Shown here: positions 59,561 to 64,000 of the stretch, in pieces
How positions within the stretch are numbered: the stretch's first letter is position 1
Layout: each line of letters begins with the position of its first letter
Origin: an uncultured Clostridia bacterium
GTDB lineage: Bacteria > Bacillota > Clostridia > Oscillospirales > Acutalibacteraceae
NCBI GenBank assembly: GCA_944384835.1
Contig: CALWUU010000015.1
Span: 1 to 64,000, forward strand
Length of the DNA: 64,000 bases
Reading direction: 5' to 3'
The notes under the pieces: generated by a model
What the model was told of the DNA's origin: nothing
What the model saw: the letters and a program-made list of their open reading frames with translations, nothing else
Database searches by the model: none
Made by a program: the position numbers and the translations under genes

Positions 59561-59610
59561 AAAAAGAAAAGTTTCTCTTTTCTGAATATATTCAGATAGG
59601 AGAAACTTTT
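59561..59610 (-). terminator. Terminator of the ABC transporter operon
   Basis: An 11-bp stem (59567-59577 with 59600-59610) encloses a second palindrome (59582-59595). On the minus strand it is followed by a T-rich run, 20 bp past the ABC ATPase stop. Confidence 0.8.
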
Positions 59611-59627
59611 TTATCGTATTTATGCGT

Positions 59628-60200
59628 TTACAGTTCGATGGTGTAAACAGCACCTAGTATTTCAGCTTCAGTTGGATCATGCGTTACAAGAATAACGGTT
59701 TTTCCTTGACTGCGCTGTTTTACATCGGACATCACAAGCGCTTTTGTTTCGGCATCTAAACCTTTGAACGGTTCATCTAAAAATAAGATATCATAATCGG
59801 CAAGTAAAGCGCGAAGAATTGCAACTCTGCGTTTCATGCCGCCTGAAAATTTTGAGATAGGGGAGTGGGCATATTCTGCCAGTCCCACTTTAGCTAAGGC
59901 TTCTTCGATCATTTCATTTTTCAATTGAGGCGACGCAAGCTTAATATTGGAAAAAGCACTTAAATTTTCGCATAATCTGTCCTCCTGAAAAACAACACTT
60001 TGCTTTAATCCTTCCAGTCCGGAAATTTCTCCGCTGTCTGCTTTCTCAAGCCCCATTAAAATACGCAAAAGAGTCGTCTTTCCTTTTCCGGAAGGCGCAG
60101 TTAATAAAGTAACCTGTCCGGCAGGGATACAGGCATTGAAATCGTTTAAAACGGTATGCTCTCCAAACGACTTGAATAAATGATTGATTGTAACTTCCAT
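59628..60200 (-). CDS. ABC importer ATP-binding protein (nitrate/sulfonate/taurine-type family)
   Basis: A 190-aa ATPase energising the adjacent importer. Walker A is APSGKGKTTLL, Q-loop region VVFQEDRLCENL, signature FSGGMKRRVAILRAL and Walker B ILFLDEPFKGLD, with THDPTEAEIL as switch. It starts at ATG 60200, just past the permease stop, with AAAGGA inside the permease end. It is short for the family, lacking a regulatory C-terminal domain. Confidence 0.88.
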   Translation of the reverse strand: MEVTINHLFKSFGEHTVLNDFNACIPAGQVTLLTAPSGKGKTTLLRILMGLEKADSGEISGLEGLKQSVVFQEDRLCENLSAFSNIKLASPQLKNEMIEEALAKVGLAEYAHSPISKFSGGMKRRVAILRALLADYDILFLDEPFKGLDAETKALVMSDVKQRSQGKTVILVTHDPTEAEILGAVYTIEL

Positions 60201-60201
60201 T

Positions 60202-60963
60202 TTATATCCTTTCCAGCCGTTGAATACCTTTATCAAGCAGATAAATGAACAATTTTTCAAAAATCAGGCTGATGAGAATGATAACAACCGTCCAAGCAAA
60301 TAAGTCCGGGGTGTCCAGATAAATTTTTGCGTTATATAAATTTTCGCCAATTGAATTTTTTGGAATTCCAATGACTTCTGCCGCTACCCCTGATTTCCAG
60401 CACAGCCCAAGGGAAATACTGCAGCCGGCACGGAAAAAGGGCATAATCTGAGAAATGTAGATATAACGGATTTTTCGCATAGGAGAAATGCGGAATACTT
60501 GAGCCATTTCCAATAACTGTTTATCGCAGGATGCAATACCGTCTTTCACGTTGGTATAAATAACGGGCAAAACGATTAAAAAAGAAATAATAATGGATAA
60601 GTTTGTGGAAGAGACCCAAATTAAAATCAGTATCACGAACGAAGCCACAGGAACCGCCTTAACGGTCAACATGAAAGGAGCTAAAAATTGTTCCACATAT
60701 TTAAACTTAGCGGAAAGCGCAGCCAATAAAATACCTGCGGCGCAAGCGGCTAAAAACCCTCCAATAATCCTGAGCAAAGAAAATGAAATAGAAAGCCAAA
60801 ATTCTCCTGTGCAGGCCAATTCAAATAACCGTTGAAATGCAGTGACAGGTGAAACCAGTAAAATATTTTGTCCAATGATCAAGGCGCATATTTGCCATAT
60901 GACAAGCCATACGGCAACAGCCCATACTTTTATTTTTCCCGGCCGTTTATTTTTTTTAGGCAT
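60202..60963 (-). CDS. ABC importer permease
   Basis: A 253-aa membrane protein with about six hydrophobic segments, related to the SsuC/TauC/NrtB permease group. EMAQVFRISPMRKIRYIYIS and GVAAEVIGIPKNSIGE mark the EAA loop that contacts the ATPase. I place the start at ATG 60963, overlapping the end of the binding-protein gene; no ribosome binding site is clear, so coupling is likely. Confidence 0.87.
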   Translation of the reverse strand: MPKKNKRPGKIKVWAVAVWLVIWQICALIIGQNILLVSPVTAFQRLFELACTGEFWLSISFSLLRIIGGFLAACAAGILLAALSAKFKYVEQFLAPFMLTVKAVPVASFVILILIWVSSTNLSIIISFLIVLPVIYTNVKDGIASCDKQLLEMAQVFRISPMRKIRYIYISQIMPFFRAGCSISLGLCWKSGVAAEVIGIPKNSIGENLYNAKIYLDTPDLFAWTVVIILISLIFEKLFIYLLDKGIQRLERI

Positions 60964-61993
60964 TGTAATAGAAATTATCGTCCGGTAAATTTCCACCTAT
61001 GGATTGTGCATTTTGGTCATTTAGTACAGAAAGATAACCGGAAAGTTTTTCTTTCATTTCACTGCCAGTGATAAAAGTAATGTTACATTCAGGAATTGCT
61101 TTTTGTGCGATTGCTTCAGTTACAATATCGTATTTACCAACCAAAGCAGCACCTTCATTTACATTGTTATTAATGTATGCTACAGATTCTTGATAGTGTT
61201 TTAGAAAATCTTCTACGGCTTGTGGATTTTGTTCAATGAATTCTTTTCTTGCAACTACCACACCGGTCACCAAAGTAGAAGGAGATTCCGCATTTTCTTG
61301 CAGTTTATCCCATTCTTCTGTTAGGTCAAGGGCAACACGCAGATTGCTGTTTTGATTTTGTGCCGTGGTTACGAATGGCTGCGGCAGCATGGCAATGGCA
61401 TTTTCGGAAGCATTTAATGCTGCGAGACATTCAGCTTGTTCACTTTTCCATTCAATGGTCACATCTGTTGCAGGGTCAATTCCGTTTTGAGAAAGAATAT
61501 AGTTTAATGCGTATTCAGGTGTTGTGCCTTTACCGCTTGCATAAATGGTTTTACCGCGTAAATCTTCTACAGATTGAACGGTATTTCCGGAATCAACAAT
61601 GTAAAGAACACCAAGGGTGTTAATGGCCAATACTTGTACGCCGCCGTCTGTATTGTTATATAAAACGGAAGCTACGTTTGCAGGTACAGCGGCAATATCT
61701 ATTTGACCTTGTACAAGTTTCGGTGTTACTTCATCAATAGAAGCTGCGATTGAGAAATTGTAATTGTTGTCAGTAATTTGATTTTCTTCACAATCGTTCA
61801 TGAATTTTACCATACCCATGGCAGTTGGGCCTTTAAGTGCGGTTATATTCATGTCAATTGGAGTGGAAGCTTGTGTTTGACTGGCAGTGGATGAACTGCT
61901 GCCGGATTCTGTTGAGACACCGGAAGAGCAGCCTGTCAATACAGCTGCAACCAGTACACTCAATCCAAGTGCGAAAGATAGTAATTTTTTCAT
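60956..61993 (-). CDS. ABC importer substrate-binding lipoprotein (NMT1/THI5-like)
   Basis: A 345-aa lipoprotein exported to the cell surface: signal peptide MKKLLSFALGLSVLVAAVLT with lipobox cysteine at residue 22, then a Ser/Thr-rich linker (to about 45). The mature domain has MNITALKGPTAMGMVKFMND and GKTIYASGKGTTPEYALNYI, a periplasmic-binding type II fold. The ligand is unknown; related importers carry nitrate, sulfonates, pyrimidine precursors or other small anions, so context is the best clue. Confidence 0.85.
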   Translation of the reverse strand: MKKLLSFALGLSVLVAAVLTGCSSGVSTESGSSSSTASQTQASTPIDMNITALKGPTAMGMVKFMNDCEENQITDNNYNFSIAASIDEVTPKLVQGQIDIAAVPANVASVLYNNTDGGVQVLAINTLGVLYIVDSGNTVQSVEDLRGKTIYASGKGTTPEYALNYILSQNGIDPATDVTIEWKSEQAECLAALNASENAIAMLPQPFVTTAQNQNSNLRVALDLTEEWDKLQENAESPSTLVTGVVVARKEFIEQNPQAVEDFLKHYQESVAYINNNVNEGAALVGKYDIVTEAIAQKAIPECNITFITGSEMKEKLSGYLSVLNDQNAQSIGGNLPDDNFYYNA

Positions 61994-62032
61994 ATTTATA
62001 CCCTCTCTTTTTGAATGTATTACAAGTCGGAT

Positions 62033-62689
62033 TTAAGAATAGATGGTATGTTCCAATCCAACCTGATTGACAATTTTAATTCTTATGGAATTGACTTCAA
62101 TCAGTTTTGCCTTTTGAAGTTCAGCCAGCTCCCTGAAAAGGGCAGCACGGCTAATGCCAATGCGGCTTGCCAGCACTTCTCTGGAGCAATTTGGTATAAT
62201 ACAATTTTTCTCATTCTGATTTGAAATTAAGTATTCTGCCAGTTTGCTGCGGCAGCTTTGCGTGGCAATTAATTCGATACGCTTAATTAAAAATTGTATT
62301 TTTTTGTTGCAGACTAAGGCGTATTTCATTGCAAAGGAAGCATCTTTTTCCATAGCAGCAACAATTATACGTTTTGGTATAAAGTATACTACAGCGTTGG
62401 TACGGCTGCGAATAACAGTTTCCATTTGTGAGCAGTCAAATAAATTGCAAATTCCAAAACAATTCCCTTTGTGCAGAGAATTCAGCATAGTATCACGTCC
62501 GTCAAGAGCAACAGAATAAATATCCAGTATGCCGGAAGCAATCAGGCCAATAAATTCTTTGCCGTTACATATATCGCTTAAATATGCTCCTGCACTGTAA
62601 GCTTTTCGGGTGACAGATGAAAAGTCAAACGAACTGCCATCCAGAAAATCAGATGCTGCGATTGCCTCAAGGTATTCTTTATTTGGCAT
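62033..62689 (-). CDS. Crp/Fnr-family transcriptional regulator
   Basis: A 218-aa regulator: N-terminal cyclic-nucleotide-binding-like domain (residues 1-120, with NSLHKGNCFGICNLFDCS) and C-terminal helix-turn-helix (SREVLASRIGISRAALFREL, about 168-187). Several cysteines in the sensory half could sense redox or a metal, but the Fnr-type N-terminal cluster motif is absent. It is the first gene of the operon with the ABC importer (39 bp gap). ATG 62689 follows AAAGGGGA. Confidence 0.88.
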   Translation of the reverse strand: MPNKEYLEAIAASDFLDGSSFDFSSVTRKAYSAGAYLSDICNGKEFIGLIASGILDIYSVALDGRDTMLNSLHKGNCFGICNLFDCSQMETVIRSRTNAVVYFIPKRIIVAAMEKDASFAMKYALVCNKKIQFLIKRIELIATQSCRSKLAEYLISNQNEKNCIIPNCSREVLASRIGISRAALFRELAELQKAKLIEVNSIRIKIVNQVGLEHTIYS

Positions 62690-62713
62690 ATTCCATTCCC
62701 CTTTCAATACTGG

Positions 62714-62729
62714 GTTAGACGTGGCTAAC
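62714..62729. promoter_or_regulatory. Palindrome A, candidate Crp-family operator
   Basis: GTTAGACGTGGCTAAC, a 16-bp inverted repeat (GTTAG/CTAAC) just downstream of the -10 of the crp operon promoter. It matches the second site at 62823-62838 in the outer half-sites. Confidence 0.5.
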
Positions 62730-62738
62730 TATAAAAAT

Positions 62739-62767
62739 ATTGTACCGAGGTTTCCGGATAATGTCAA
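62739..62767 (-). promoter_or_regulatory. Promoter of the Crp-ABC operon
   Basis: On the minus strand TTGACA (62767-62762), 17-bp spacer, TACAAT (62744-62739). Confidence 0.72.
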
Positions 62768-62822
62768 TATAAAAAGATTTTCATGGAGTCTCACGTGATA
62801 CTGACAGTTCACAAAATACTTG

Positions 62823-62838
62823 GTAAGCTTATGCTAAC
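62823..62838. promoter_or_regulatory. Palindrome B, candidate Crp-family operator
   Basis: GTAAGCTTATGCTAAC, a 16-bp inverted repeat sharing GTwAGM-N4-KCTAAC with palindrome A. It overlaps a weak -10 (TAAGCT, with CTGACA 17 bp upstream) for the GTPase gene. A regulator bound here would block that promoter. Confidence 0.5.
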
Positions 62839-62862
62839 TTTTATCATTTGGAGCTGAGATGT

Positions 62863-63552
62863 TTGCTGAAAAAAGTAATTTTAATTTCCGGTGGAGCTGC
62901 AGTAGGAAAAACTGCTGTATTAAAGAATATCATACCATTATTGCAAAGTAAAGATATAGCGCTGTCAGTATGCAAAATTGATTGTGTGGCAACAAAAGAC
63001 GGTTTGGTTTATGAAAATATGGGCATTCCCAGTGTAGTAGGAATCAGCGGAGATATTTGTCCCGACCATTTTTTAGTTTCTAATCTTCCGGAGCTATATC
63101 ACTGGGCAGATGAGAAAACAAGCGATATTCTGCTCATTGAAACAGCAGGTCTGTGCCATAGGTGTTCGCCTGCCACTGAAAAAATGACAGCAGGATGTGT
63201 GTTGGACTGTACTTCCAGCTGTCAGGCGCCTGCACAGCTGGGGCCTATGCTGACATATGCTGACTTTGTTGTACTTACTAAAATTGATATGGTATCACAA
63301 GCTGAGCGGGAAATTATTTTATGGAAAATAAAAGATCTAAATCCTTCTGCAAAGCTGTTTACAATCGATGGATTGACAGGATATGGAGCAGAAGGTTTAG
63401 CTGATTGGTTAGGCGGTCTTTCAAAAGAAGAAAATTTTGACGATGATATATTACGCCATAGTATGCCTAGTGGTGTTTGTTCTTACTGCGTAGGAGAAAA
63501 AAGGGTAGGAAGCGTTTATCAGCAAGGAGTAGTAGGAAAAATTGAGTTTTAA
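62863..63552 (+). CDS. Cysteine-rich G3E-like GTPase
   Basis: A 229-aa P-loop GTPase related to the HypB/UreG/CobW/MeaB class. I place the start at TTG 62863 after GGAG; a TTG at 62848 gives five more residues. Walker A is GGAAVGKT (residues 10-17), the G3-like motif IETAGLCHRCSP (92-103), G4 TKID (139-142). Cysteines cluster as CHRC, CVLDCTSSC (112-120) and CSYC near 210, so metal or Fe-S binding is likely. G3E enzymes serve metal insertion or cofactor delivery; the target here is unknown. It heads a plus-strand unit with the next ABC-type gene. Confidence 0.8.
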   Translation: MLKKVILISGGAAVGKTAVLKNIIPLLQSKDIALSVCKIDCVATKDGLVYENMGIPSVVGISGDICPDHFLVSNLPELYHWADEKTSDILLIETAGLCHRCSPATEKMTAGCVLDCTSSCQAPAQLGPMLTYADFVVLTKIDMVSQAEREIILWKIKDLNPSAKLFTIDGLTGYGAEGLADWLGGLSKEENFDDDILRHSMPSGVCSYCVGEKRVGSVYQQGVVGKIEF

Positions 63553-63566
63553 GACAGGTGAGCATC

Positions 63567-64000
63567 ATGCATAAGTTAATCATTTGCGGGGGAAACGATA
63601 AATATGGAAATTCGGAAGGAATTCAGCGTTTGGATTTATTTCGAGGTGAATTGTATACCATAGTGGGCAATACGGGTTCAGGAAAGAGCAGACTGATGAA
63701 AGATATTGAACAGCTTGCAGATCATGATACGGTGACACAGCGCAGAGTGTTTATTGATGGCAAGCAATTCACTTGGGAGGAACGTCAAGAACAGTCACTG
63801 CATTTTGTTGCGCATTTAGGGCAGAATATGCGTTTTATGTTAGATACAACCGTAGAGGAGTTTTTGAATCTACATGCACATTGCAGGGCGAAAGAAGTGG
63901 ATACCAATGAGATTATTTTTCAGGCAAACCAAATTACCCCTGAAGCAATTATGCCCAATCAAAGTTTAAATTTATTAAGCGGCGGTCAAACAAGGGCACT
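63567..64000 (+). CDS. ABC-type ATPase, cut by the window end
   Basis: The first 144 residues of an ATP-binding cassette protein. It starts at ATG 63567 after AGGTGA, 14 bp past the GTPase gene. Walker A is GNTGSGKS (34-41) and the signature LLSGGQTRA lies at the window edge; Walker B is outside. The region between (residues 55-130) differs from typical importer ATPases, and I do not recognise the subfamily. It may be a transporter ATPase for the neighbouring system or a non-transport cassette working with the GTPase. Confidence 0.8.
   Translation, partial: MHKLIICGGNDKYGNSEGIQRLDLFRGELYTIVGNTGSGKSRLMKDIEQLADHDTVTQRRVFIDGKQFTWEERQEQSLHFVAHLGQNMRFMLDTTVEEFLNLHAHCRAKEVDTNEIIFQANQITPEAIMPNQSLNLLSGGQTRA

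Follow-up and report, generated by a model that had tools for sequence, protein, structure and literature searches.

The paired palindromes in the divergent promoter region of a transporter and GTPase gene cluster from an uncultured Clostridia bacterium are general iron boxes, which occur throughout the genome at genes of iron storage and uptake; the evidence gives good support for reassigning the regulation of this locus to iron. The cluster lies at the end of the window, by which we mean the whole stretch of DNA analysed (positions 1-64000 of the 85,908-base contig CALWUU010000015.1, from a 1.77-Mb draft genome whose assembly is 92% complete). One strand encodes a Crp-family regulator and an ATP-binding cassette (ABC) importer, and the other a GTPase, a permease-less ABC ATPase and a third protein, which we call SBPc. 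Intracellular metal trafficking is the best-supported function of the cluster, and we lean slightly towards reading the locus as an iron-regulated unit for the acquisition and delivery of a metal.

A genome-wide iron box at both divergent promoters

The original prediction placed two 16-bp palindromes at 62714-62729 and 62823-62838 and took them for operators of the regulator encoded beside them. Both coordinates were confirmed, and the two 16-mers are the only matches to GTTAGCNNNNGCTAAC (at most one mismatch) in the 64 kb of the window, against a shuffle mean of 0.14. Across the window genome, a loose pattern, GTWAGN6CTWAC, gave 14 sites compared with 11 for a reversed control, which alone is not significant. 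The tight form GTTAGCN4GCTAAC, with one mismatch allowed, gave 16 sites against 2 in the control, and it also outnumbered its control in the Lachnospiraceae genome G246 (18 versus 1) and in G346 (34 versus 8).

Within the window genome, the neighbours of the tight box are ferritin, a NEAT/Shp haem-uptake operon, Dps, a FecBCD importer, a ZIP transporter, flavodoxin with DUF3793, a ferric-reductase-like gene beside hydF, a DtxR-family regulator (Fe_dep_repress) with feoAB, and the window locus itself. Three of the 16 sites lack such a neighbour (C10:181, C17:56684 and C35:6963), and those on C10 and C17, which fall inside open reading frames (ORFs), are probably chance matches. The box recurs in G246 at feoAB with a DtxR-family gene, at flavodoxin/DUF3793 and at ZIP; in G346 at siderophore-type transporters and energy-coupling factor (ECF)/ABC transporters; and in two genomes of the window genus, G398 and G399, at feoAB and DtxR-family genes. 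Given that neither G398 nor G399 has a match to the window Crp or the GTPase module, the persistence of the box in these genomes implies that its binder is a general regulator.

It would be very improbable, on this evidence, that both palindromes form a private regulon bound by the Crp encoded at the locus. They do lie on either side of the divergent promoters and share the conservation of the locus, as such a regulon would have it, but the same palindrome stands genome-wide at iron genes, also in same-genus genomes with no Crp match, and a separate element follows the Crp gene. Crp was therefore rejected as the binder of the paired palindromes. The order of genes at feoAB makes the DtxR-family protein a candidate for that role. 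As in the classical DtxR/IdeR iron regulons, boxes are found at ferritin, Dps, feo, haem uptake and siderophore uptake, and a DtxR-family gene adjoins feoAB; what differs is the box itself, here the 16-bp GTTAGC-N4-GCTAAC, and the inclusion of a new module. The box defines a regulon of gut Clostridia in which other iron genes can be found by pattern search. Separately, in G346 (L156:465-3777) two iron boxes accompany another SsuA-like binding protein with its ATPase, whose genes run divergently from one for a Crp and have no GTPase trio beside them.

At the orthologues of the window locus, where the original prediction had proposed to look for the palindrome, a box of this type is kept in 15 of 18 loci. 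In a promoter alignment, box 1 of most orthologues is directly preceded by TTGAC(A), about 17 nt and a hexamer like TANAAT, and the CTGACA of the GTPase side is conserved together with its spacing to the box. No RNA elements were found at the window locus. Its regulatory features are as follows.

62714-62729: iron box 1, GTTAGACGTGGCTAAC, directly downstream of the crp-side -10
62739-62767, minus strand: promoter of the crp/importer operon, TTGACA-N17-TACAAT, from the sequence and the orthologue alignment
62788-62801: probable Crp operator, GTCTCA-CG-TGATAC, 14 bp, with FNR-like geometry; unique in the window genome, and follows the Crp gene
62801-62829, plus strand: weak promoter of the GTPase operon, CTGACA-N17-TAAGCT, with its -10 inside box 2
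62823-62838: iron box 2, GTAAGCTTATGCTAAC, which holds the -10 of the GTPase promoter

The Crp regulator and its probable separate site

The element at 62788-62801, GTCTCACGTGATAC, is a third regulatory element that was absent from the original prediction. In the promoter alignment, eight loci have GTCTCA-NN-TGATAC on the GTPase side, its start 34-36 nt ahead of the start of box 2. The window genome holds a single match, and G346 holds one at its module plus one other. Scored over 12 positions, the element reached 11-12 in 11 Crp-bearing loci, the window included, and 10 in L014 and L015. Orthologues of the window Crp are present in 16 of the 17 clade-1 loci, and in L010, the sole one without Crp, the best score was only 8. 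Because it is kept in Crp-bearing orthologous loci and absent from the Crp-less locus, we regard GTCTCA-N2-TGATAC as the likely Crp site. Its centre, placed by hand with TAAGCT in box 2 as the -10, falls near -41.5 with respect to the GTPase promoter, where class II Crp/FNR activators usually bind. The logic of the locus would then be activation by Crp plus repression by iron. L011 and L012 carry the Crp-like element on the other side of the box, between it and the GTPase; there the element reads GTCTCA-N2-TTAGAC and runs into a stretch of T, resembling a terminator or attenuator (L011:1247-1300; L012:8727-8780).

Several cysteines of the Crp protein (62033-62707) are conserved in its clade, within ICNL, LCN and QSC, and these cysteines might bind a metal, haem or a cluster. 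HcpR was rejected as the identity of the protein, since it shares just 15% identity with the Crp that is linked to hcp in the same genome, and its motif is different. The HcpR2 regulon does resemble the window locus in setting a Crp/FNR-type regulator beside metal-cofactor genes in anaerobes, but its motif, GTAACnnnnGTTAC (PMC1274295), differs from the window Crp element, and the window locus showed neither a GTAACnnnnGTTAC site nor linkage to hcp. In the window genome, hcp lies apart from the window locus, with ferredoxin and a divergent Crp of its own (L128:4519-7607).

The importer, the GTPase and a predicted cytosolic binding protein

ORF and domain searches bore out the gene assignments of the original prediction. 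The minus-strand operon runs from the Crp-family regulator through a lipobox-bearing binding protein and a BPD_transp_1 permease to a short ABC ATPase, and with binding protein, permease and ATPase its importer is complete. The plus strand encodes a cobW/HypB-like GTPase and then a second ABC ATPase, truncated by the window end. Extension past 64000, which had been proposed as a check, completed this ATPase (63558-64310) and added a third gene to the plus operon at 64307-65224, overlapping the ATPase stop codon; the gene that follows sits on the opposite strand. The start choices for the GTPase and crp were read from ribosome-binding sites and homologue ends.

59628-60260, minus strand: importer ATPase, SsuB/TauB-like (ABC_tran 9e-26), likely start near 60200
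60202-60996, minus strand: importer permease, SsuC/SaoP-like (BPD_transp_1 5e-15; NCBIfam SaoP and SsuC under their cut-offs)
60956-61993, minus strand: lipoprotein substrate-binding protein of the SsuA/NMT1/phosphonate-bd superfamily (domain searches; lipobox LTGC)
62033-62707, minus strand: Crp-family regulator (cNMP_binding and HTH_Crp_2), probable start ATG 62689
62848-63552, plus strand: G3E GTPase, predicted UreG/HypB type (cobW 3e-11), likely start TTG 62863
63558-64000, continuing to contig position 64310, plus strand: permease-less ABC ATPase with Walker A, LSGGQ, Walker B and H-loop intact
64307-65224, outside the window, plus strand: SBPc, predicted cytosolic and ferric-binding-protein-like, 305 aa, third gene of the operon

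Homologues of the importer ATPase, 51-63% identical, occupy the same position in most clade-1 loci, and the only PDB sequence match of the lipoprotein is 3hn0. The Sao organometal system was considered for the importer and rejected: with 76.8 bits on SaoP, where the cut-off is 295, the permease shows a family resemblance only.

In the GTPase, GKT, E98-T-A-G101 (the ETAG G3 motif) and TKxD are invariant across 15 sequences, as are CPDH, GLCxRC and CSYC. A glutamate in the G3 motif (ExxG) and a cobW Pfam match above cut-off place the protein among the G3E GTPases. Its profile matches UreG (3e-7) and HypB (4e-7), its CPDH aligns on the UreG CPH and HypB ECH metal motifs (the switch I dimer metal site), and UreG and HypB are the nearest folds to its predicted model, which has a predicted local distance difference test score (pLDDT) of 84. 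The metallochaperone-like GTPase of the original prediction agrees with all three, and we consider the protein a probable UreG/HypB-type G3E GTPase that is predicted to bind metal. It shares with these nickel metallochaperones the fold, the G3E motif, Cys-Pro-(Asp)-His at switch I and a Cys in the switch II loop, but it is only ~20% identical to them and has an extra C-terminal CSYC and an ABC ATPase as its constant neighbour; the GTPase loci showed no genes for urease or [NiFe] hydrogenase. HypB membership was rejected on TIGR00073 (37.8 bits against a cut-off of 121.2). So was membership of COG0523, which is defined by a CxCC metallochaperone motif (PMC9164220): the GTPase has GLCxRC and CSYC and no CxCC.

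The plus-strand ABC ATPase keeps its catalytic motifs, and its operon contains no permease. SufC, the soluble ABC ATPase of Fe-S assembly, is likewise permease-less with soluble metal-handling partners, but the module has no SufBD partner and no specific sequence link to SufC was found.

SBPc gave no Pfam match and no PDB sequence match, and only a fold search succeeded. For the fold work we used the L004 homologue, with 54% identity to the protein of the window organism; its model (pLDDT 88) returned 1021 PDB matches at E<=0.001, with FbpA, HitA and FutA leading. In this model the first beta strand begins at residue 2, which leaves no room for a signal peptide and therefore makes the protein cytosolic; its N-terminus is not hydrophobic. 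A profile comparison (hhalign 99.2%) also identifies SBPc as a homologue of the SBP_bac_6 proteins that the third gene encodes in other clades. Its near-invariant residues in a sequence alignment are Y198, C12, E18 and D68, while the ferric ligands of FbpA are His/Glu/Tyr-Tyr. SBPc may thus be a cytosolic look-alike of the ferric-binding proteins FbpA, HitA and FutA, for which ferric binding is only predicted; it differs from them in having no signal peptide, no permease in its operon and an apparently incomplete set of the ligands.

Variable partners and the likely cargo

In a scan covering 84,980 species, 16 loci proved orthologous; they belong to Oscillospiraceae, Butyricicoccaceae, Lachnospiraceae and one Treponema. 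By tblastn, every locus on a sufficiently long contig has the trio of GTPase, ABC ATPase and third gene. Of the 17 loci outside Treponema (the window and L053 counted), 16 have Crp and 13 have importer genes, and the single co-regulated divergent locus of the original prediction is conserved in these orthologues. The importer slot is filled differently in L013, by NifH with two NifE/NifDK-like proteins and a FecBCD importer, and in [Clostridium] aminophilum (L014 and L015), by a methyltransferase-like gene. Since the contents of this slot vary while the trio is constant, the trio is the core and the importer is exchangeable. L013 (2708-9808) carries the same Crp and iron box over its NifH/CfbC-like and two NifE/NifDK-like proteins with FecBCD, and encodes a nitrogenase-like reductase in an apparently iron-regulated operon.

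The wider family was counted by hand as homologues scoring over 167 bits; below these the scores drop straight to 51 bits, at which HypB-like proteins set in. Its GTPase occurs in 51 of 398 genomes of the phylum (about one in eight sampled), and in 41 of 41 cases examined an ABC ATPase adjoins it on the same strand. A tree joins the window group, L054 and Treponema in a clade with support of 100/98, some branches being long. The partners in the wider family are SsuABC with Crp, FecBCD with a methyltransferase or DUF364, ECF/ABC transporters, hcp with a DUF1858-SBP protein, and, in clade 3, an FeS-domain protein in place of the binding protein. One clade-3 module (ABC ATPase, GTPase and PF04060 FeS protein) adjoins feoAB (L078:6155-9864). 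The original prediction would have had the importer and regulator accompany the GTPase and ABC genes in most relatives; in the wider family the pair mostly occurs without them, whereas in the window clade importer and Crp are usual, a partial refutation by the test that the prediction had set itself. It had also known no described system of this make-up, and we found none in the open-licence papers that our literature searches covered.

The hcp neighbourhoods raise the question of whether the trio matures or repairs one Fe-S or hybrid-cluster enzyme, such as Hcp or a relative, with the importer as a secondary addition. The trio and a DUF1858-SBP protein stand beside hcp and Crp in several genomes, clade 3 swaps the binding protein for an FeS-domain protein, and in the window genome hcp sits on a different contig. 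We nevertheless think this quite unlikely, as hcp is present in the trio-less genomes G399, G402 and G378, was not found in the trio-bearing G216, and is not adjacent in clade 1.

Other relatives point to molybdenum or tungsten. Molybdenum/tungsten cofactor (Moco/Tuco) riboswitches, whose regulons have been described (PMC2408646), control clade-2 relatives of the module: L059 and L087 each have one immediately before the GTPase gene, and adjacency checked by hand places one within about 5 kb of the module in 7 clade-2 genomes. These cases would favour a molybdenum or tungsten cargo across the family, the window locus included. Several hcp-linked carriers, however, have no moaA above cut-off or Moco riboswitch; neither does the window genome, and the window clade has iron boxes instead. 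Such a family-wide cargo is improbable, and a molybdenum cargo in the window organism was rejected as unlikely. Molybdenum and tungsten enzymes are likely absent from the species, at 92% assembly completeness, and the cargo probably differs by lineage. One of these riboswitches occurs in G246 (C2:13892-14028), a genome that nonetheless has no moaA above cut-off.

The importer itself suggests an organic cofactor: it would bring in a compound needed at low iron (a sulfonate, pyrimidine or tetrapyrrole, for example), and the trio would deliver a cofactor, like MeaB with cobalamin. Its SsuA/NMT1/THI5 superfamily fits this proposal, the clade-2 riboswitches sense a pterin cofactor and not free metal, and the NifH, NifE-like and FecBCD genes of L013 and the importer by an activase in L006 suggest chemistry on an imported compound. 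Against it, the SBPc fold resembles metal-binding proteins, the GTPase keeps the UreG/HypB metal-motif positions, and DUF364 ('heavy-metal chelation') and siderophore-type importers recur. An organic cofactor is an unlikely reading, if the strongest of the competitors.

Metal trafficking, by contrast, draws on the iron boxes, the metal-motif positions of the GTPase and the wider-family partners (metal importers, DUF364 and Moco riboswitches). The best reading is of a modular intracellular metal-trafficking cassette that is iron-regulated in the window clade. Under iron shortage, the DtxR-family repressor encoded beside feoAB would leave the two boxes and both divergent operons would open, with the local Crp, bound at the one site that it has, additionally activating the GTPase operon. 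What the importer takes up would be a metal complex, most probably a chelate of iron. In the cytosol, SBPc would hold the metal as a ferric-binding-protein-like carrier, and the GTPase and permease-less ATPase would power either the release of the metal or its insertion into a metalloenzyme client. Of the original interpretation, co-regulation, metal handling and the GTPase type thus stand, and the palindromes as Crp operators do not.

Several points weigh against this scheme. The ligand, metal and client of the locus are putative, and it is gene order that nominates the DtxR-family protein as box binder. Iron regulation is no proof of iron cargo, given that flavodoxin has a box and hydF adjoins one. 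As a family, SsuABC-type importers transport organic compounds, among them sulfonates and pyrimidines. Foldseek TM-scores for SBPc are moderate (0.55-0.69), and it shows one conserved Tyr compared with two in FbpA, so that it is at most a putative ferric binder. Other clades are under molybdenum/tungsten riboswitches or beside hcp, and their cargo may differ.

More tentatively, and with somewhat less confidence than for the window locus, the family could represent an undescribed class of machine in which a binding protein and an ABC ATPase have moved to the cytosol without a permease and are coupled to a UreG/HypB-type GTPase. Metal-specific versions (iron-regulated here, under molybdenum/tungsten riboswitches in other Clostridia) would attach to whichever importer supplies the metal. 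Little is known of how anaerobes pass iron, molybdenum and tungsten on from their importers to enzymes, and a GTPase-ABC ATPase pair placed under iron boxes or riboswitches by lineage would be a general, testable metal-trafficking device.

Two further observations concern the surroundings of these modules and regulatory elements. A second SsuABC-type importer lies near the module in L006 (110-7492), beside a 1301-aa BcrAD/DUF2229 activase of the 2-hydroxyacyl-CoA dehydratase type. Small DUF2325-like proteins, recognised by eye, are encoded under an iron box in G399 (L163:3316-3594) and under a Moco riboswitch in G386 (L069:5716-6021).

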